From a virus, in the IMG/VR virus record IMGVR_UViG_3300042465_006864, positions 1 to 64,000 of that record: a stretch of 64,000 bases of DNA. One strand, given 5' to 3'. Under the pieces are notes generated by a model, which was not told where the DNA came from, did not search any database, and was given only the letters and a program-made list of their open reading frames with translations. Each line of letters opens with the position of its first letter. Within the stretch, counting starts at the first letter, position 1. Positions 4,639 to 61,957 of the stretch are shown one piece after another. Position numbers and translations under genes: made by a program.

Positions 4639-7533
4639 TTAATTTTTTCCTCCGTAGTTAAGTTCATAGAGATACATATTAGTCGTTCCCGTAGATGCGA
4701 CTAATGTTTTTGCCATTTGACCAAGACCTCCAAATCCTAAATTTGGTCTAGCTGGCGCACCGCTAGCAACATAAGTTACACTGCCAATTAGAATAGTATC
4801 ATTTAACCAAAAATTGAATACTCCATTTGATTTATGTATGTATATTCTTGCTAATTTTTCGGCAAATGCGTCTGTATTCAAAAGCACATTTGAAATATAA
4901 TGTGAGTTTCCACCGCTTGTCCAAGTGCCATTTCCGCTTGAGCTATTTAATGAATATGAATTACCATCAATCCGTGTTACTGTCCAAATTCCATTTGCTG
5001 CTGTATTACCTAAACAGCCATCAATTTCTATTTGATCATTCGTAACAAAACCATGATTATTTTGCGTAATGACAATAGGTGATGCATTTGTAGCCGCAGA
5101 TATTGTGGATCTAAAATAAGGTAGTCCAAACCCATGAAAAATACGAATATCATAATTCGTTGATGAAGATCCATTTGTGATATGAACTCCTAGTCCGCCA
5201 TATACTGATACTATTCCATCAGTATTAATATTACCTGCAAAAAGCTTAACGAGTTGATTTGTTCTTACATTTGCACTATTGATAGCATATGTAAAATTGA
5301 ACACCCAATCAAACCATATCTCTGACATATCCCACTGGATTGATGAGTAACCATTTGCTGTAACTATTCCTAGTGGACATAAGGATAATTGATTTGCTTG
5401 TGAAAATGATTTAGATCCTAATGTAGTAGTAGTATACGCATTCAAATAGGACGGAGTTGGAGAAGTGCCTCCACCACTCGCATGAGATGTGTTCCAAGTT
5501 CCGCCAACATTACATTTGCGATTAATGATATATCCATTTAGTCCTGCATTTACTCGCGTAGTTAATACACTATCAAGAGAAGAATATAATTGATTAGGTA
5601 ATGATAAACTATTAGAAACTTGTAATGAATCTGCAATAGTTAAATCTTGAACAGTTAAGTCTGCATCCAACTTAGCACTTGTCACGCTACCATCAGCAGG
5701 TATGTTTTGTGATACCTGTAAACTATTCGTCGGTGATATGACAACTGCTTTGCTTCCACTTGGTAATGGACTTGTGAATGTTATGTTTCCACTAGCTACA
5801 GTATAGTCAACAACAGGCTCTTGTAAGATACCATCAATAGCCACAATGAGTGCTGATGGATTTACTAACCCGCTTGCTCCCGATATTGCATATCCAGAAG
5901 TAGCGCCATTACCTGTTACAGTTGTTCTTACTGGATCGACAACTGTTGCATAGTTATTAGGATTGCTTGCAGCGTAGAACTGTCCCGTTTGAAACTGTGT
6001 AATAAATACTCCAGTTTCTGTTTTTAAAGCATAATTTCCTGTCGCACTGTTCAATGTGGAAATTTGGGTTTGCAAACTTCCACTAATGCCAGTCATCTCT
6101 TCAACAGAAGCTATCGTATATAAAACACTTAGATCGCTAGCTCTAGTTCCAATTCCAAACTTAAACTTATCTGAATGATCAAAACCAAGAATCGCACCAG
6201 AATCATTAATCCCAGTCAAACCAGAACCAGTAACAAAAAACAAACCACCATCAACTGCTCCACCAGTTAAGTTGAGCATGATGTAGTTACTTGCTACGTT
6301 TGTGTTTGTGGTATTTACGATTGTTTCAAGACCAGTTACATACAAATTGTTGATGTATACTTTATCATGAAAGGTTTTGTCTCCAAGTATTGTTTCTGTG
6401 CCAGTTGTATTAACGTATCTGGATTCAGATTCGTTTTTGGTATAATAGTTGCCAGAGAACGAAAGATCGACTCCTGTAATAAATCCAGAAGGATTGCTGG
6501 CAGCATAAAATGCCCCTGTCTCTGATGGTCTCACAACTTCTCCAGTGACATAGCCCGATAAAAGACCACTAACAGTATGATCAAAATCAATCAGCGTTCG
6601 CACTTGGCTTGCTGTCAAATCTTCAGGATCGCTTGTTCCAGCAGAAATACGACCTTTGATGCGCTGAGAAGCCATATCTGCCAATTTAGTATTGGTAACA
6701 GCGTTTGTGGCGATAATGTTAGTAGTGACAGAAAGACTCGACAACTTGTCAGTTGTGACGTTAAAGTTAGCGATTTTAGCAGTTGTCACTGCGCCATCGG
6801 CAATTTTGCTATTGGTAATTGCAGAGTTATCTATCGAAAAATTTAAATTGCTGGAGCTATTGCCAGTAATAGTAATATCACCACGATCACCTGTTAAAGA
6901 ATTAAAACTAATAAAATCACCAGTCTCACTTGGACGAACTACACTTCCTGTGACATAAGCAGAAAGGTCAACTCCCGTAATAAATCCCGAAGGATTACTC
7001 GTTGGATAAAATGCTCCTGTCTGCGATGGTCGCACAACTTCTCCAGTTACGTATGCAGATAAATCAACACCAGTAATAAATCCAGAAGGATTGTTGGCAG
7101 CGTAAAATGTTCCAGTTTGCGAAGCGGTGATGAAGCTGCCTGTTTCAGAGGGTCTTACCACATCTCCTGTAACATATGCTGACAAGTCAACGCCAGTAAT
7201 GAATCCAGATGGATTAGAAGCAGGATAAAAAGCTCCAGTTTGCGAAGCCGTAATGAAATTGCCCGTATCAGAAGGTCTAACAACTGCTCCAGTCACTAAA
7301 TTAGTATACTGTCCAGATGTTAAGTGATAATAGCTATTGACAGAACCACCTTGTAAGCCACCTAAAAGATTGTGAAGAAGTTCATCACTTCCGCCGCTTT
7401 GATGCGTTACTGAGTGATTAATAATGCCCTGATTTAACGTCAAAGGATTAATGTAAATATTTTCGCCAGTATCATTCACTGTGATACTAGTAGTTTCTGG
7501 AGAGATTACATTAACAACAACTGAGTCTGGCAT
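4639..7533 (-). CDS. Long repetitive tail fibre protein
   Basis: 964 aa. The N-terminal half is built of a recurring module of about 45 residues, SGFITGVDLSAYVTG followed by VVRPSETG and GxFY(A/P)(A/S)(N/S)NP; GFITGVDLS occurs four times and VVRPS.TG at least five. The C-terminal about 330 residues are unique and resemble a beta-rich head domain (WTSGGNSHYISN, LARIYIHKSNGVFNFWLND). The nucleotide copies differ mostly at synonymous positions, so the repeats are kept at protein level. It follows the BppU-like gene by 2 nt. Long virion fibre or side fibre by repeat architecture and context. Confidence 0.82.
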   Translation of the reverse strand: MPDSVVVNVISPETTSITVNDTGENIYINPLTLNQGIINHSVTHQSGGSDELLHNLLGGLQGGSVNSYYHLTSGQYTNLVTGAVVRPSDTGNFITASQTGAFYPASNPSGFITGVDLSAYVTGDVVRPSETGSFITASQTGTFYAANNPSGFITGVDLSAYVTGEVVRPSQTGAFYPTSNPSGFITGVDLSAYVTGSVVRPSETGDFISFNSLTGDRGDITITGNSSSNLNFSIDNSAITNSKIADGAVTTAKIANFNVTTDKLSSLSVTTNIIATNAVTNTKLADMASQRIKGRISAGTSDPEDLTASQVRTLIDFDHTVSGLLSGYVTGEVVRPSETGAFYAASNPSGFITGVDLSFSGNYYTKNESESRYVNTTGTETILGDKTFHDKVYINNLYVTGLETIVNTTNTNVASNYIMLNLTGGAVDGGLFFVTGSGLTGINDSGAILGFDHSDKFKFGIGTRASDLSVLYTIASVEEMTGISGSLQTQISTLNSATGNYALKTETGVFITQFQTGQFYAASNPNNYATVVDPVRTTVTGNGATSGYAISGASGLVNPSALIVAIDGILQEPVVDYTVASGNITFTSPLPSGSKAVVISPTNSLQVSQNIPADGSVTSAKLDADLTVQDLTIADSLQVSNSLSLPNQLYSSLDSVLTTRVNAGLNGYIINRKCNVGGTWNTSHASGGGTSPTPSYLNAYTTTTLGSKSFSQANQLSLCPLGIVTANGYSSIQWDMSEIWFDWVFNFTYAINSANVRTNQLVKLFAGNINTDGIVSVYGGLGVHITNGSSSTNYDIRIFHGFGLPYFRSTISAATNASPIVITQNNHGFVTNDQIEIDGCLGNTAANGIWTVTRIDGNSYSLNSSSGNGTWTSGGNSHYISNVLLNTDAFAEKLARIYIHKSNGVFNFWLNDTILIGSVTYVASGAPARPNLGFGGLGQMAKTLVASTGTTNMYLYELNYGGKN

Positions 7534-29086: not shown

Positions 29087-29097
29087 ATAGAAAATTA

Positions 29098-29168
29098 TTG
29101 CGGGAACGGGGGTCGAACCCGTAGCTCTAGCTTATGAGACTCGCATGTTACCATTACACTATCCCGCG
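29098..29168 (-). tRNA. tRNA-Met (CAT), initiator-like acceptor
   Basis: 71 nt. Acceptor CGCGGGA/TCCCGCA has a C1-A72 mismatch, the mark of bacterial initiator tRNA, and the same CGCGGG start as E. coli tRNA-fMet. T arm ACGGG-TTCGACC-CCCGT; anticodon loop CTCATAA. The anticodon stem lacks the three G-C pairs of true initiators and has one mismatch. CCA not encoded. Could be initiator, elongator or, if modified, Ile(ATA) decoder. Confidence 0.75.
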
Positions 29169-29197
29169 ATTTATTATAAGTTTTTTTGTGGTTGTTT

Positions 29198-44764: not shown

Positions 44765-44836
44765 GTTCGCATAGTGAAGCGGTTATCACTCTGAGCTTTC
44801 TACTCAGCATCACGGGTTCGAGTCCCGTTGCGAATA
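44765..44836 (+). tRNA. tRNA-Glu (TTC)
   Basis: 72 nt. Acceptor GTTCGCA/TGCGAAT (G1-T72 wobble), anticodon stem CTGAG/CTCAG with loop CTTTCTA, T arm ACGGG-TTCGAGT-CCCGT. T at position 37 is unusual. CCA not encoded. Confidence 0.88.
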
Positions 44837-44842
44837 CTTTTT

Positions 44843-44926
44843 GCCGCGATCCCTTAGTGGTCGATAGGACTTGCCTTGTAAGCAAGATGCTTATGCACAT
44901 CGTCAGTTCGAATCTGACTCGCGGCT
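44843..44926 (+). tRNA. tRNA-Thr (TGT) with long variable arm
   Basis: 84 nt. Acceptor GCCGCGA/TCGCGGC, anticodon stem CTTGC/GCAAG with loop CTTGTAA, T arm GTCAG-TTCGAAT-CTGAC. The variable region is 15 nt and can form a hairpin, a class II feature not expected for threonine. Discriminator is T; CCA not encoded. Confidence 0.8.
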
Positions 44927-44977
44927 CATTTTGAAAAATATAGAGTTGAAATAAAGCGAAAAAAAATAAATATTAAC

Positions 44978-45412
44978 ATGAAGCAAAATCATATCAATAA
45001 AATAACTGATGAAGAGTTAATATCTGAATATAATAAAAATCCACATCTTGGTAAAATGTCACATAATTTACGATTACCTATAATTACAATTTGGAGGAGG
45101 CTTAGTAAATTGGGTTATAATTGTTCTTCTCCTAAAAACATTAATAAAATTATACCATTAAATGAAATATTACAAGGTCTGCATCCATATTATCAAACAT
45201 TTAAATTAAATAAACGAATTTTAAAAGAAAAAATACTGGAAAATATATGTGATGTTTGTAAAACATCCGAATGGAATAATAAACCAATCTCTTTGCATTT
45301 GGATCATATAAATGGCATTTCAACTGATCATAGGTTAAAAAATTTAAGATTTTTATGTCCAAATTGTCACTCACAAACAGAAACATATTGCGGAAAAAAT
45401 AAAAAGTGTTAG
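44978..45412 (+). CDS. HNH homing-type endonuclease
   Basis: 144 aa, more AT-rich than its surroundings. N-terminal HTH-like region (ITDEELISEYNKNPHLGKMS, then ITIWRRLSKLGYNC). C-terminal HNH: CDVCKTSEW, LHLDHINGISTDHRLKNLRF, LCPNCHSQTETYCG, with two zinc CxxC pairs. Sits inside the tRNA array; the last 7 nt of the gene are the first 7 nt of tRNA-Tyr. Typical of a free-standing homing endonuclease that spreads with tRNA loci. Confidence 0.85.
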   Translation: MKQNHINKITDEELISEYNKNPHLGKMSHNLRLPIITIWRRLSKLGYNCSSPKNINKIIPLNEILQGLHPYYQTFKLNKRILKEKILENICDVCKTSEWNNKPISLHLDHINGISTDHRLKNLRFLCPNCHSQTETYCGKNKKC

Positions 45413-45492
45413 CTCCAATGACGGTGAATTGGGGCGGGCTGTAAACCCGTTGCCTTCGGGCTGAGTAGGTTCGAATCCTATCTGACACACCA
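45406..45492 (+). tRNA. tRNA-Tyr (GTA)
   Basis: 87 nt including CCA. Acceptor GTGTTAG/CTGACAC, anticodon loop CTGTAAA on a CGGG/CCCG stem, class II variable arm with TTGCCTTCGGGCTGA, T arm GTAGG-TTCGAAT-CCTAT. 5' end shared with the HNH stop region. Confidence 0.92.
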
Positions 45493-45497
45493 TATAT

Positions 45498-45575
45498 CTA
45501 GTCGTGGTGGAGCGGTCTAACACACCTGCTTTGGAAGCAGGAACAACGCAGGTTCAAATCCTGCCGACTAGACCA
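45498..45575 (+). tRNA. tRNA-Pro (TGG)
   Basis: 78 nt including CCA. Acceptor CTAGTCG/CGACTAG, anticodon stem CCTGC/GCAGG with loop TTTGGAA, T arm GCAGG-TTCAAAT-CCTGC. Confidence 0.92.
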
Positions 45576-45578
45576 AAT

Positions 45579-45652
45579 TGGACATTAGTGTAATGGTAAC
45601 ACCCAACTCTTTGAAAGTTGTATTGCTGGTTCGAGTCCAGCATGTCCTACCA
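45579..45652 (+). tRNA. tRNA-Gln (TTG)
   Basis: 74 nt including CCA. Acceptor GGACAT/ATGTCC with an unpaired T1-T72, as suits glutamine tRNA; anticodon stem CAACT/AGTTG with loop CTTTGAA; T arm GCTGG-TTCGAGT-CCAGC. Confidence 0.9.
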
Positions 45653-51385: not shown

Positions 51386-51766
51386 ATGACAATCACACAA
51401 CAACTTAAAGTAAAGGAATTCCCATTCATCATCAGAAATTCAAAAGGTCAAGAGGTTTACTGGGAGAACTCCGATGGATTTTGGGTAAAACGTGAATACG
51501 ATTCCAATGGTAATGAGATTTACTTCGAGAACTCTTATGGAAGTTGGGAGAAGCGTGAATACGATTCCGATAGTAATCGGATTTACTTCGAGAAATCTAA
51601 TGGATTTTGGGCAAAAAGTGAATATGATTCTAATGGTAAAGAGATTTACTGGGAGAATTCCGATAGAGAAATCATTGATAATCGTCCCAAGACAGAAATC
51701 CAAAAAGCCATTGAACTTCTCACGAAAGAAGGATTGATCGTAGATGGTAAGATTTTAAAAAACTAA
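51386..51766 (+). CDS. YD-like repeat protein, copy 1
   Basis: 126 aa. Four copies of a 20-21-residue repeat, xxYWENSDGFWVKREYDSNG with IY(F/W)E(N/K)S, span residues about 20-95; an N-terminal KVKEFPFIIRNSKGQE and a C-terminal helix RPKTEIQKAIELLTKEGLIV frame them. Repeats recall YD repeats of Rhs/toxin proteins but are shorter. Tandem paralogue follows at 51786. Role unknown; possibly a protein- or sugar-binding adaptor. Confidence 0.6.
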   Translation: MTITQQLKVKEFPFIIRNSKGQEVYWENSDGFWVKREYDSNGNEIYFENSYGSWEKREYDSDSNRIYFEKSNGFWAKSEYDSNGKEIYWENSDREIIDNRPKTEIQKAIELLTKEGLIVDGKILKN

Positions 51767-51785
51767 GATACAATCATAACATAAT

Positions 51786-52169
51786 ATGAAAACAATAGCA
51801 CAACAACTTAATGTAAAGGAATTCCCATTCATCATCAGAAATTCAAAAGGTCAAGAGATTTACTGGGAGAACTCAGATGGACGTTGGCATAAACGTGAAT
51901 ACGATTCCAAAGGTAATCAGATTTACTACGAGAACTCTTATGGAAGTTGGGAGAAGCGTGAATACGATTCTAAGGGTAATCAGATTTACTTCGAGAACTC
52001 TAATGGATACTGGGCAAAAAGTGAATACGATTCCAAAGGTAAAGATATTTACTACGAGAACTCTAATGGAACAGTCATTGATAATCGCCCGAAAACAGAA
52101 ATCCAAAAGGCAATCGAACTTTTGACAAAAGAAGGATTGCTGGTAGATGGAAAGATTTTAAAACAATAA
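51786..52169 (+). CDS. YD-like repeat protein, copy 2
   Basis: 127 aa, about 80% identical at DNA level to 51386-51766 and same architecture: four repeats of (Y/F)(W/Y)ENS(D/Y/N)G..KREYDSKGNQIY, same N- and C-terminal segments. Recent tandem duplication. Separated by 19 nt, without a clear own promoter. Confidence 0.6.
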   Translation: MKTIAQQLNVKEFPFIIRNSKGQEIYWENSDGRWHKREYDSKGNQIYYENSYGSWEKREYDSKGNQIYFENSNGYWAKSEYDSKGKDIYYENSNGTVIDNRPKTEIQKAIELLTKEGLLVDGKILKQ

Positions 52170-52177
52170 AAACAAGC

Positions 52178-52735
52178 ATGAAACTATTCTGGGACATTGA
52201 TGAAACGCTGATTCACTCTCGCGCTTACATTCACGAAAAATACAAACACACATTCATTGTTGATGTTTACGACGAACTCTACTATACTTGTGTAAGACCC
52301 TGCGCGAAACAAGTGATTGAATACAGCCGCGAAGTATTCGGGGCAGATAATGTATATATCCTCACCGCTGCCGCAGAGCTTTACGCTCAACGCATCAATA
52401 AACTAGCGAAATGGAACTTCCCCGAAGATCATATCATTGGGCGCGAAACAACTGAGCGTTACTGCATCAATATACCAAGCCTGTATGGTAGCGACACTTT
52501 CGTAAGCGAACATCCTTTGGCTAATAAAAACAACCTTTTAATTGATAATTTATTTCCGCCATTTAATCATGAAAAGACATCATTAATGTTGATTAATCAA
52601 AAAAATTACTTGACAGTCGAAGACTATATTGGTAATAATCTTGACGACGACATCTTCAGAGATAAAGTGAAACATTTTATGGATGATGCGCTGAACCGTT
52701 ACGCTGACAATTTAATAGAACAACAAAAACAATGA
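52178..52735 (+). CDS. HAD-like phosphatase (NIF/FCP-type)
   Basis: 185 aa. MKLFWDIDETLIHSRAYI has the DxDxT motif at Asp6/Asp8; VYILTAAAELYAQRINKLA is motif II (ILTA.... with Thr) and NNLLIDNLFP is motif III/IV with Asp. Fits an NLI-interacting-factor-like or PNK-phosphatase-like HAD. A role in removing RNA 3'-phosphates together with the RNA ligase and P-loop kinase is a possible inference, not shown. ATGA overlap with the next gene. Confidence 0.7.
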   Translation: MKLFWDIDETLIHSRAYIHEKYKHTFIVDVYDELYYTCVRPCAKQVIEYSREVFGADNVYILTAAAELYAQRINKLAKWNFPEDHIIGRETTERYCINIPSLYGSDTFVSEHPLANKNNLLIDNLFPPFNHEKTSLMLINQKNYLTVEDYIGNNLDDDIFRDKVKHFMDDALNRYADNLIEQQKQ

Positions 52736-53088: not shown

Positions 53089-53108
53089 ACAATAAATAAA
53101 TAAATAAA

Positions 53109-53393
53109 ATGAATTATACAAACGAACAAATTAAAAAACCATCTCCTAATAGCAACATTAAAGACGTAATGGAAGAGTTGCATCACAACATTATGATAAA
53201 TCGAGAACTTATAGCTATTCTGGAAGACCGAACGCTTCCGATTCGCCTTGAGAGTCCGACAGTAGCTACAACAACTTCTGATAAACCGTACCCTCCTCTT
53301 TCCGCAATCGAAGCATCTATTTGGGATTATAAAGAAACAGTTCAGCGAAACAATAACGCGATAAATCACATTCTTGAAACTTTGCGACTTTAA
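53109..53393 (+). CDS. Hypothetical protein
   Basis: 94 aa, helical, with a central Thr/Ser-rich hinge (SPTVATTTSDKPYPPLSAIE). Two coiled-coil-like helices flank it. Unknown role. Confidence 0.5.
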   Translation: MNYTNEQIKKPSPNSNIKDVMEELHHNIMINRELIAILEDRTLPIRLESPTVATTTSDKPYPPLSAIEASIWDYKETVQRNNNAINHILETLRL

Positions 53394-53396
53394 TAC

Positions 53397-53675
53397 ATGA
53401 AATTACAAACAGTCGCAGAAGTAGCTGCCATTGAAGGCAGTTGGGACACAAAAGCTTTGCGTATGACAGATCACGCGCAAAAACTCGAAAGTAAATCTCT
53501 TTTGGCGTTGGCGACTCTCAACTTATTAGTGGATGCAGTTGAACAGGCTATTGAGTTTGGCGATTGGAAAGTTGATGGGCGTTGTGATCCTGATATGGTG
53601 CTATCGTGCGCAAGAGACTTACTATTTGACAATGGATATGAAAAAAGTCTTGACACGCTAGCACAAGAAGTGTAA
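53397..53675 (+). CDS. Hypothetical protein
   Basis: 92 aa, all-helical, soluble, two Cys (GRCDPDMVLSCARDLLF). Its last codon and stop (GTG TAA) are part of the late-like motif before the structured RNA. Not recognised. Confidence 0.5.
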   Translation: MKLQTVAEVAAIEGSWDTKALRMTDHAQKLESKSLLALATLNLLVDAVEQAIEFGDWKVDGRCDPDMVLSCARDLLFDNGYEKSLDTLAQEV

Positions 53676-53678
53676 TAA
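53669..53678 (+). promoter_or_regulatory. Late-type promoter motif at the end of a coding gene
   Basis: AGTGTAATAA overlaps the last codon and stop of 53397-53675 and would start RNA at about 53684. Same motif as before virion genes; because it is also coding, chance is possible. Confidence 0.4.
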
Positions 53679-53681
53679 TCT

Positions 53682-53985
53682 TCTGGCGCTGACATACCGC
53701 TTAGTATGTCCCTACACTCGCGTTCATTGCATTGAGGGCTAAGATGCACTCCCAGAGGGGTGCATTGACGAAGGCAGCACCAGACTAGGCATAGTTTAAG
53801 AGCCTTACGAACTTGAGCGACCTGAACAGTGGATGCGAGTGTGGGAAACCATAAAAGAACTAGCGCTAACATCAGATAAGCGTACTATGAGCTTACGAAG
53901 GCTAGCTTAAAAATTCGTGGCAAGTAAATGTAGGGAAATTGTCTGGTTGACTGTCGTGAACAGAGCGACTTAAACTTTCTAATAA
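53682..53985 (+). ncRNA. Large structured RNA of unknown class (or long leader of the glycosyltransferase gene)
   Basis: About 300 nt with no plus-strand coding frame. Strong helices: GACATAC/GTATGTC (53691-53697 with 53704-53710, 6-nt loop); an 11-bp long-range helix CCTACACTCGC/GCGAGTGTGGG (53711-53721 with 53835-53845); a 9-bp hairpin ATGCACTCC/GGGGTGCAT (53744-53752 with 53757-53765); AGGC/GCCT (53787-53790 with 53802-53805); CTAGC/GCTAG further 3'. GC content is clearly above the surroundings. Either an independent ncRNA or a 5' leader of the gene at 53988. Not recognised as a known family. Confidence 0.55.
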
Positions 53986-53987
53986 AT

Positions 53988-55826
53988 ATGATTAAAAATA
54001 TATTAGTATATTCTTCCGTTGGAGACATTTGCACATTCTTTCCGATGTGGAAACACGATAAAATTCAATACGCTTTCAATTACTACGGCAACAATACAGA
54101 GCGAAAAGAGCATATTAAATCATGCTGCGACTACTTTAGCCACATAAAAGGCACGAAGTTTAATTTGTTTTCAAAATTATTTGGGACACTGCCTCTATTT
54201 GATTACTATGTATTGCTCGACGACGATCTTAATCTCACAGGCGCAGATATTATGCAAATGGTTGAGAAAATGGACGCTTTAGGCTACGGTGTAGGATCGC
54301 CATCACATTCTCCAGAGGGAAGCATGTCGTGGTCTATCATGAAGACTCAAGACAGCAGCGAATACCGAAGCGTCGATTTTGTTGAAATGACTGGCGTTAT
54401 TTTTAATCAACAAGAAATGAAAAGATTTTTGGATGCTTATACTCCTTACGCCGATCAAATGGTTGGTTTTGGCGTGGATTATATCATTCATAGCGTTTGC
54501 AATAAGCCGTTTGTTATTTTTGACAACGTATCAGTGGTAAATCCAACCAATGAACAAAAGGGAATCAAACAACAAGAAATAGAAACATATTTATCGGGGC
54601 AAAGTGATAGAGATATGTGGGAAAAAGTTCTTGCCGATCCTAACAATAGTTTTGTAGCTTATTCGCCGAAAACAATTAGCCTCAAAAAGAGAAAGACTGT
54701 CCCGAAAGTCAACATTGACAGCTTTTTAAAATCATTAAAAAAGAAAAAAGTACACGCCTTTCAATCTTTAGCGTCAGCTACTAAAAAGCGACTAGAGCAG
54801 CATGGATTGATTGTTGATTATATCAGTAACCAAAGCGGTCATCGCAAACCTGATTCTGATGTTTTAGTTATAGATTTCAATACAGCGTCTTTTGGAAAAG
54901 ATTGCGAGAGCGTTAATCAACACAAATACAAATACAAAAAAATTCTTTTAATAGGTTTTTTGGTTACGGATTACAACGGTCATGATTATAGTGATGACTT
55001 GGCTAAATTACCCCAACACACAATAGTCGAGGCGTTGGATGATTATAGCGATAGATTTTATAGCAAATTTCTATTAGGTCAATTTGTTGGCACACCAGAT
55101 GATGTCACGAATAAAGTCAGTGTTGTTTGCGCTTGCATGAATCGTAACGATGTTTTGCGAGTCAACATAACTTCTTGGCTGCATTTTTCGGAAGTTGGAG
55201 AGATTGTTGTTGTTGATTGGAGCAGCGATCAGCCTTTAGACTATCTAACAACACTAGACCCAAGAATCAAAGTAATAAGAGTAGACGGTCAAAAGCAATT
55301 TAATATATCACAGGCATTTAACTTAGCGATAGATAATGCAAGCTTAGAATACGTATTGAAATTAGACACTGATTACTTTTTAAATCCGTATTATAATTTT
55401 TTTAAACATCATCCAATGAATTCTGAGGTATTTTACGCAGGAAATTGGAATATCGACTCAGAGCTTCCCGCACCTATATTTCAACATTTGGCTGGATTGT
55501 GCTACGTTCAGAGAGATGTGCTAGCGTCAATCAACGGATATAACGAACATTTTTCGGGCTATGGTTATGATGATGCTGATTTACGCATTCGATTACAAAG
55601 TGTTCATGTTGGTAAATTGCTTCCAATTAAATACGATTACAGTATTATGCACATACCTCACGCAAGCTCGCTGAGAATAGCTCACTACATCGACAGTCAA
55701 TACAACGTATCAAACAACAAAGAAACTGCAAAAAACATGGGCATCGCTCCAAACAGAGTAAGATCGTGGACGATAAAAAATACACAAAACCCCAATTATT
55801 TTCTTGCACACGATCCAACTCTGTGA
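53988..55826 (+). CDS. Two-domain glycosyltransferase
   Basis: 612 aa. Residues about 1-230 hold a first GT-A domain with a DDD metal motif in YYVLLDDDLNLTGADIMQ (about 73-90). Residues about 375-600 form a second GT2-type domain: VVCACMNRNDVLRVNITSWL, VVDWSSDQP, AFNLAIDNASLEYVLKLDTD with DTD, and NGYNEHFSGYGYDDADLRIR, the ending of GT27-like galactosyltransferases. Substrate unknown, possibly the same glycan as the GT4/GT9 proteins. Directly follows the structured RNA. Confidence 0.75.
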   Translation: MIKNILVYSSVGDICTFFPMWKHDKIQYAFNYYGNNTERKEHIKSCCDYFSHIKGTKFNLFSKLFGTLPLFDYYVLLDDDLNLTGADIMQMVEKMDALGYGVGSPSHSPEGSMSWSIMKTQDSSEYRSVDFVEMTGVIFNQQEMKRFLDAYTPYADQMVGFGVDYIIHSVCNKPFVIFDNVSVVNPTNEQKGIKQQEIETYLSGQSDRDMWEKVLADPNNSFVAYSPKTISLKKRKTVPKVNIDSFLKSLKKKKVHAFQSLASATKKRLEQHGLIVDYISNQSGHRKPDSDVLVIDFNTASFGKDCESVNQHKYKYKKILLIGFLVTDYNGHDYSDDLAKLPQHTIVEALDDYSDRFYSKFLLGQFVGTPDDVTNKVSVVCACMNRNDVLRVNITSWLHFSEVGEIVVVDWSSDQPLDYLTTLDPRIKVIRVDGQKQFNISQAFNLAIDNASLEYVLKLDTDYFLNPYYNFFKHHPMNSEVFYAGNWNIDSELPAPIFQHLAGLCYVQRDVLASINGYNEHFSGYGYDDADLRIRLQSVHVGKLLPIKYDYSIMHIPHASSLRIAHYIDSQYNVSNNKETAKNMGIAPNRVRSWTIKNTQNPNYFLAHDPTL

Positions 55827-55832
55827 TATAGT
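55804..55832 (+). promoter_or_regulatory. Early promoter
   Basis: TTGCAC (55804-55809), 17 bp, TATAGT (55827-55832), 23 nt before the ATG at 55856; lies over the end of the glycosyltransferase gene. Confidence 0.55.
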
Positions 55833-55855
55833 CAGCACACGAACATATAAACACA

Positions 55856-56146
55856 ATGATTAAAAACATTACAGCAGAAGAAATTAAAACAACATACCGC
55901 GACAATCATGGATTCGCATTTGTTTCGGCGCAACCAGTTTCTGACGATGCAATCTATCGACTGGCAGATTCATTGATTCAATTCAACATTGCGACTAAAC
56001 ATCCTATTGTCGTGACACGTTATCAACAAGGCGTGGTTTTTATTTACGATGATTTCGACGCTCCTAAGTTTTTCGCTAAGGCGCAATTTGCAGAGCAGGT
56101 GCTTGGTATTTGCAAAATAGTTCCATTTTTGGAGTATGTGAAGTAA
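55856..56146 (+). CDS. Hypothetical protein
   Basis: 96 aa, alpha/beta, CKIVPFLEYVK end. IKTTYRDNHGFAFVSAQPVS and DFDAPKFFAKAQFAEQVLGI. No family recognised. Followed by the tRNA-like element. Confidence 0.55.
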   Translation: MIKNITAEEIKTTYRDNHGFAFVSAQPVSDDAIYRLADSLIQFNIATKHPIVVTRYQQGVVFIYDDFDAPKFFAKAQFAEQVLGICKIVPFLEYVK

Positions 56147-61406: not shown

Positions 61407-61482
61407 GCGCTTGTAGCTCAGTGGTCAGAGCAGGGGTCTCATAAACCTTTGGTCATAGGTTCAATCCCTATCAGGCGCACCA
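61407..61482 (+). tRNA. tRNA-Met (CAT)
   Basis: 76 nt including CCA. Acceptor GCGCTTG/CAGGCGC, D arm GCTCAGTGGTCAGAGC, anticodon loop CTCATAA, T arm ATAGG-TTCAATC-CCTAT. Regular 1-72 pair, so an elongator Met or lysidine-Ile tRNA. Confidence 0.9.
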
Positions 61483-61494
61483 AATCAAACAAAA

Positions 61495-61525
61495 GCTTCC
61501 GTAGCTCAATTGGATAGAGCAATAA
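61495..61525 (+). pseudogene. 5' half of a degraded tRNA
   Basis: GCTTCCG-TA-GCTCAATTGGATAGAGC looks like an intact acceptor 5' strand and D arm, but no CGGAAGC partner follows; tRNA-Arg begins at once. Confidence 0.55.
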
Positions 61526-61597
61526 GACCTCATAGTTAAAAGGATATAACCAATCTCTTCTAAAGATTAATTCCAAGTTCGATTCTTGGTGGGGTCA
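61526..61597 (+). tRNA. tRNA-Arg (TCT)
   Basis: 72 nt. Acceptor GACCTCA/TGGGGTC, D arm GTTA/TAAC, anticodon stem AATCT/AGATT with loop CTTCTAA, T arm CCAAG-TTCGATT-CTTGG. CCA not encoded. The last 3 nt overlap the stop of the convergent HNH gene. Confidence 0.88.
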
Positions 61598-61957
61598 CTC
61601 TTCAGCGTGTCGTATTCTGTGGCAATTTGCGCACAACATTACACACTTATCTAATTCGTGCGTTATCTTATCCCAAGAGCGTAGGCGCAATTTTGCCCAA
61701 TCCGCATCTTTTTTACTTGGCTCTATGTGATGAAATTCAAACACTCCAGCAGGAAAGTTGGGGTAGCGAATACCACAATCAATACACAAGCTACCTTTAT
61801 AATTAATAGCTTCTATTTTTCTTTTTTTCCACCGATTTATGCAATATAGATCGAAGCATTTGCGGCAGTGGGATGAACCATTTTTTCTGTTTTTTTGTTG
61901 ATAAAAATCGCTGATCAATTTCTTTTCTTTGCAAGAGGTGCAGGTTTTAGTTTCCAT
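61595..61957 (-). CDS. HNH endonuclease
   Basis: 120 aa from ATG 61957 (METKTCTSCKEKK), supported by a late promoter motif 5 nt upstream; the frame is open to 62125 but only by chance. N-terminal zinc finger CTSCKEKK...CRKC, then CIDCGIRYPN and FEFHHIEPSKKDADWAKLRL, MLCANCHRIRHAEE: a complete HNH with two CxxC pairs. Third HNH gene adjacent to tRNA genes here; probably a free-standing homing endonuclease. Confidence 0.85.
   Translation of the reverse strand: METKTCTSCKEKKLISDFYQQKNRKNGSSHCRKCFDLYCINRWKKRKIEAINYKGSLCIDCGIRYPNFPAGVFEFHHIEPSKKDADWAKLRLRSWDKITHELDKCVMLCANCHRIRHAEE

Follow-up and report, generated by a model that had tools for sequence, protein, structure and literature searches.

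Few families of structured RNA are known from phages, and they are mostly of unclear function. GOLLD is an ornate phage-borne RNA, often located near tRNA genes, that combines a conserved with a less conserved region, and ROOL is a phage and prophage RNA with pseudoknots that lies near tRNA islands (both PMC12286853). PreS, 24B_1, and VpdS are phage-encoded RNAs that act on host or phage development; they are short (20 to about 88 nt), and PreS and 24B_1 are linked to Hfq (PMC12197685). No extended conserved scaffold is described for these three. The packaging RNA of phi29 is a small structured phage RNA tied to the packaging ATPase and the genome end.

Here we describe an RNA encoded in a 64,000-nucleotide stretch of DNA from an uncultured phage (hereafter "the window") and the family to which it belongs. 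The window RNA resembles GOLLD in being phage-borne, obscure in function, and built from a conserved and a variable region, and its family resembles ROOL in combining phage location, pseudoknots, and tRNA proximity (PMC12286853). It differs from both in that many GOLLD members exceed 800 nt, ROOL is much larger and forms nanocages, and neither model matches the window RNA. For GOLLD, we know of no case in which whole heads are exchanged on a rod that stays constant. The family also differs from PreS, 24B_1, and VpdS, as it shows no excess of antisense matches to the phage stretches compared. The phi29 packaging RNA falls in a comparable size range, but many members of the new family lie among replication genes, and no Rfam match to the window RNA was found.

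A structured RNA in an intergenic gap of the window

The RNA lies in a gap of exactly 312 nt (53676-53987) between the stop of the ORF at 53397-53675 and the start of the ORF at 53988-55826, a two-domain glycosyltransferase that is directly downstream of the RNA in both the window and locus L002. A preliminary description of the window had noted this gap as free of coding frames, richer in GC than its flanks, and strongly folded, and all of this was borne out. No plausible gene is present in 53676-53987, where the sole ORFs are antisense; GC content is 0.44-0.475, compared with 0.31-0.42 in most neighbouring 160-nt bins; and the plus strand folds at -100.4 kcal/mol (z = -3.65), which is equalled by none of 100 shuffles and by none of 1,192 size-matched segments sampled across both strands of the window, while the minus strand of the gap reaches z = -0.65. 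The gap holds a real structured RNA. One minus-strand ORF, 53471-53872(-), was dismissed as a gene because its second half runs through the head (below), in place of which close relatives have unrelated sequence; its first half lies opposite the ORF at 53397-53675.

From 5' to 3', a pseudoknot strand is followed by the hairpin P1, the rod P2, and a CA bulge; then come two pairs, of which the first covaries, and a G.G mismatch; and next are AGG/CCU, the asymmetric loop G/AGCGA, the helix P3, and the head. All features are on the plus strand. The pseudoknot (53685-53701) joins GGCG (53685-53688) to CGCU (53698-53701) in the P1 loop and has four pairs in the window, one of them G-U. P1 (53691-53710) is the hairpin GACAUAC-CGCUUA-GUAUGUC, with 53691-53697 paired to 53704-53710, and is the 7-bp hairpin noticed earlier; the 11-bp long-range helix noticed with it proved to be part of the longer rod P2, whose 5' strand (53711-53729) pairs with its 3' strand (53827-53845), with covariation on the 31 sequences of the model R1 described below. 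G-U pairs are frequent in P2, and pairing as RNA is therefore favoured. Two conserved strands follow: CA-UU-G-AGG-G-C at 53730-53739, with the CA bulge, the pair 53732-53826, the G.G mismatch 53734/53824, and the G of the asymmetric loop, and GAGCGACCUGAA at 53815-53826, which closes P3 and contributes the AGCGA loop strand, CCU, the G.G mismatch, and the covarying pair. Between them, P3 carries a head domain of 75 nt (53740-53814), in place of which L002 and L008 have unrelated heads (116 and 82 nt, respectively). A 3' tail (53848-53987) is kept in the window's clade and is about 95% identical to that of L002; no equivalent was recognised in members outside this clade, and no terminator was found after the window RNA.

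Two smaller features were noted in the same region. A direct repeat, CTnGCGCTrACAT, is present in the window's clade (53683-53695 and 53862-53874 in the window), and in L008 both copies have changed together (CTCGCGC), for which pairing offers no explanation. L126 and L168 have an extra stem upstream of P2 (UCAAUCCAGCUUUGG / CCAAAGUUGGAUUGA in L126) that is like the lower half of P2.

A sigma70-type promoter precedes the RNA at 53650-53679 (plus strand), with TTGACA from 53650, an 18-nt spacer, and AATAAT to 53679 (TTGACA-N18-AATAAT; 11/12 matches, with TG before the -10), and it is kept in the two closest homologous loci, L002 and L008 (p=0.01 each). The motif AGTGTAATAA, earlier read as a late-type promoter, is indeed present at 53669, but it contains part of the -10 of this sigma70-like promoter and is not a T4-late TATAAATA box. 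The predicted RNA start is at about 53685-53687, the first G of the pseudoknot strand. No own promoter or terminator is evident among members outside the window's clade, and we rejected an own promoter as a general feature of the family. In L008, a promoter-like TTGACA...TGTAATAAT sequence (5690-5730 and 6116-6143) is found also at the end of the preceding gene, and this element may be repeated ahead of separate gene modules within this group of phages.

Comparison of the window RNA with Rfam 15 covariance models, a check that the preliminary description had proposed, gave no match at the gathering score, including for tmRNA, permuted tmRNA, RNase P, 6S, group I/II introns, GOLLD, ROOL, HEARO, and YrlA. 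Even at E<=10 nothing meaningful was found over the window RNA, L002, or L126, the sole weak match to the window RNA being a human lncRNA model at chance level (E 1.2). Elsewhere in the members tested, Rfam matches are to tRNA and tmRNA only, none of them over the RNA, and ARAGORN reports no tRNA or tmRNA at 53676-53987. At the level of Rfam models, these results agree with the earlier judgement by eye, which saw no match to tmRNA, RNase P, or 6S.

Related RNAs across uncultured phages

Homologues were reached by several routes: L002 via a relative of the glycosyltransferase, L008 and L012 via two exact-pattern scans, and L126, a more divergent copy, via a relative of the ORF at 52178-52735. 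The ends of the RNA are highly identical in L002, L008, and L012 (88-95% in L002), and the middle is unrelated in each; L126 shows compensatory changes in the long helix and has GAGGGC and GAGCGACCTGA as conserved motifs. Scanning for GAGCGACCTGANCNGNGG gave a large set that includes 33 distinct loci with a GAGGG arm and a complementary rod, 31 of which form alignment A1 (two loci were left out). With a tighter pattern, 38 stretches were retrieved from 2.9 million viral contigs. In total, related sequences occur in about 40 uncultured phage contigs, sometimes with two copies per record, and the same core is present in contigs of 37 to 63% GC (0.37 to 0.63). This core consists of a rod P2 of about 19 bp, the internal loops CAnUGAGGG / AGCGACCUGA, the short helix P3, and a head of 22 nt (L157) to 116 nt (L002). 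The window copy has the P2 rod, the two loops, P3, and the compensatory changes that define membership; with eight others, it also has the 5' P1 hairpin and pseudoknot, which some members do not evidently share. Several members instead have a hairpin of another kind in the place of P1, and by eye some of these hairpins look capable of forming a similar pseudoknot.

Covariation argues strongly for this structure. In the alignment of 31 sequences, in which the two arms are joined and most of the head is omitted, 96.1% of cells are paired (shuffles, 81.7%), with a covariation score of 0.473 (shuffles, 0.176; 0/500 as high). Three pairs that were not used for selection change compensatorily: pair 23-53 (A-U 13, G-C 9, U-A 8, G-U 1; 31/31 paired), pair 32-40 (U-A 12, C-G 10, A-U 4, U-G 3, G-C 2; 31/31 paired), and pair 33-39 (28/31 paired). 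For the 5' elements, a second alignment of nine sequences (A2) has P1 100% paired, with 3/7 pairs changed on both sides, and the pseudoknot helix 88.9% paired, its pair 4-18 being A-U in five sequences and G-C in four. The "invariant" core is in part imposed by the search pattern and the row filter: the pattern included the letters GAGCGACCUGA..G.GG of the 3' strand, and rows were kept only if they had GAGGG and at least 11 of 18 P2 pairs. The same applies to GAGCGACCUGAA, which belonged to the search pattern and is invariant partly by construction; it is also intact in the second copy of G091, described next. The near-invariant positions C21 (30/31), A22 (31/31), U24 (30/31), C30, and A31 lie outside the selection criteria.

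A covariance model built from the 31 sequences (R1), as the preliminary description had suggested for homologous loci, scores the window copy, itself among the 31, at 52.1 bits (E 8.9e-13). It also found the second copy in G091 (L306:3025-2905), where the core motifs are intact and the whole pattern is not fitted. We considered whether the internal loop could be a K-turn, which has three unpaired bulge nucleotides adjoining tandem sheared G.A pairs. The window RNA lacks this arrangement, and the K-turn was rejected because the would-be bulge position forms covarying Watson-Crick pairs (pair 23-53; A-U, G-C, U-A).

No true member was found by exact pattern in bacterial and archaeal genomes (84,980 species), in which the first pattern gave 0 matches, and because of this the family looks confined to viruses; 16 matches to a looser pattern in the same species have no matching arm and look like chance. 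Named phages (50,697 records, BLAST) gave chance-level matches only, with no model match in the fetched regions that were checked, and plasmids gave one chance-level match. A weak match in Ruegeria phage RpAliso adjoins a permuted tmRNA, has no 3' strand, and was rejected; that permuted tmRNA (L268, 2602-2823; Rfam RF04321, 129.5 bits) lies beside a tRNA array and is unannotated in the record. The suggestion of a novel phage ncRNA is thus upheld by the lack of an Rfam match, the compensatory changes in a family of many phages, and the score of the window copy: an uncatalogued family of structured RNAs in many unrelated uncultured phages is well supported. No description of this family was found in the open-access papers searched, and it may have been described elsewhere in the literature.

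Head exchange and genomic context

In at least four comparisons of sister phages, the scaffold is 82-100% identical and the head is swapped for an unrelated one. L160 and L174 are 98% identical upstream, 100% downstream, and 100% in P1 and the 5' core; L194 and L220 are 92% identical upstream, 99% downstream, and 100% in both P1 and the 5' core; the window and L002 are 85% identical upstream, 90% downstream, 93% in P1, and 82% in the core; and L002 and L008 are 75% identical downstream, 97% in P1, and 100% in the core; the heads are unrelated within each pair. Heads also differ between L218 and L246 (upstream identity 88%). Particular heads recur in other surroundings: head class A is found in L002, L126, L154, L168, L177, L194, and L236, between flanks that are mostly unrelated; class B is found in L153, L174, and L220; and L164 and L190 have a 98% identical head in common between different flanks. 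Heads of classes A and B show compensatory changes of their own, and heads in general have a modest folding advantage over shuffles (mean z -1.5; window head z = -3.16). Beyond the P3 ends, no motif common to the heads rises above shuffles. An antisense-guide reading of the heads was rejected, with no excess complementarity to the own-phage stretches compared.

The RNA itself appears to move between phages, because the window and L160 are nearly identical in P1/P2 (53/54 nt in common) and have just one ORF (30% identity) in common in the stretches compared; the head appears to move separately. Head exchange suggests selection on the head, and it could instead reflect relaxed constraint on a spacer and not arms-race selection.

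The RNA is independent of its neighbouring genes, with no neighbouring gene family conserved across member loci. It is usually on the same strand as its neighbours, which, where recognisable, are often genes for replication, recombination, or nucleotide metabolism (primase-helicase, DNA polymerase A, helicase, Sak4, RecT, Erf, exonucleases, and thymidylate synthase). The RNA can be regarded as accessory, because the relatives L118 and L119 are without the whole stretch 53097-55854. Besides the RNA and the glycosyltransferase, this island holds two small ORFs, and a short stretch takes its place in L118 and L119.

A few members (L160, L174, L157/L201, L175, and L267), not including the window, have tRNA genes near the RNA. 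The window has eight tRNA genes (29097-29169, 44765-45652, and 61407-61598), none adjoining the RNA, with HNH endonuclease-like ORFs (by eye) beside the first and last groups. In L158 and L192, an orphan T-arm-like GGAGGTTCGAATCCTCC, not called as tRNA, lies no more than about 110 nt downstream of the RNA.

Candidate roles of the RNA

The best explanation as a whole, to which we give about even chances, is a trans-acting RNA in which a constant scaffold carries interchangeable structured heads that confer host-directed specificity. In the window's clade, the RNA would probably be made from its own sigma70-type promoter, beginning at the pseudoknot strand, and in most other phages it would probably be released from early or replication-gene transcripts. 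We infer expression, action in trans, a partner of the scaffold, and head specificity under arms-race selection as follows. The scaffold of pseudoknotted P1, rod P2 with its two conserved internal loops, and closing helix P3 would display one of several interchangeable, independently structured heads; the internal loops would bind a widely conserved partner, the simplest candidates being a host RNA-binding protein and the ribosome, and the 5' pseudoknot would protect the 5' end. The head would supply the specificity, and recombination through the conserved arms would exchange heads quickly, as might be expected if the head meets variable host factors, for example, defence components. Any target of the heads would be a guess, because they have neither a shared motif beyond the P3 ends nor unusual complementarity to the phage stretches compared. 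More tentatively, and with some doubt, we propose that the family is a virus-only RNA chassis, its rod and pseudoknot kept and its structured heads swapped by recombination to match changing host factors. If so, it would be an RNA counterpart of modular viral specificity proteins, with swapping like that of anti-defence genes or tail fibres. Model R1, the sister phages that differ in their heads, and the start site predicted above provide handles on what the heads recognise.

The chief competing reading is that the RNA acts in cis within early or other phage transcripts, as an element between genes for RNase III-like processing, stability, or antitermination; P2 would be the duplex that is recognised and the head a tolerant loop. 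Such roles have precedents: in T7, early transcripts are processed by cleavage at hairpins between genes, and antitermination in phage HK022 works through RNA elements. In most members, the RNA sits between genes of the same direction and has no promoter or terminator of its own, which would also fit a cis-acting element, and the length of P2 is about two helical turns. We nevertheless consider this role rather unlikely, since the letters of the internal loops are strongly conserved across phages of very different GC, the heads are structured and have covariation of their own, and the window's clade has a dedicated promoter with its predicted start at the pseudoknot strand.

Improbable, in our view, is a GOLLD- or ROOL-like RNA that self-assembles or forms a cage and whose internal region varies. 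The RNA is phage-borne, pseudoknotted, and near tRNA genes in several members, and one part of it is conserved and another variable, as has been reported for GOLLD (PMC12286853), but it is several times smaller, and no Rfam model, GOLLD and ROOL included, matches it even at E<=10. We judge similarly improbable that it belongs to a small mobile element, intron-like or transposon-associated, that spreads for its own sake: near identity in unrelated phages, absence from a close relative at the same place, and two copies in some records are as expected of such an element, but no transposase, endonuclease, or reverse transcriptase is seen as a conserved neighbour, group I/II introns, HEARO, and other Rfam models do not match, and the RNA is not inside genes. 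A DNA-level palindrome such as a replication origin, which the frequent location in replication-gene clusters might suggest, is very improbable given the many G-U pairs in P2 (18/31 at one pair, 12/31 at another), the common strand with neighbouring genes in most loci, the pseudoknot, and the far better fold of the plus strand.

Finally, we give hardly any credence to the RNA being a 5' leader or riboswitch of the two-domain glycosyltransferase, as had been proposed from its position directly upstream of that gene (a position also seen in L002), because the close relative L008 carries the same RNA and promoter before a homologue of the ORF at 55856, with no glycosyltransferase at that place, and neighbours vary from phage to phage, without the conserved downstream gene that marks a cis-regulatory riboswitch. 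A general leader role is already contradicted; in the window, the RNA may act locally on that gene. Elsewhere, the window contains two adjacent, near-identical ORFs (51386-51766 and 51786-52169) made of short repeats (EIYWENSDG.W.KREYDS..) that align in several registers with a relative.
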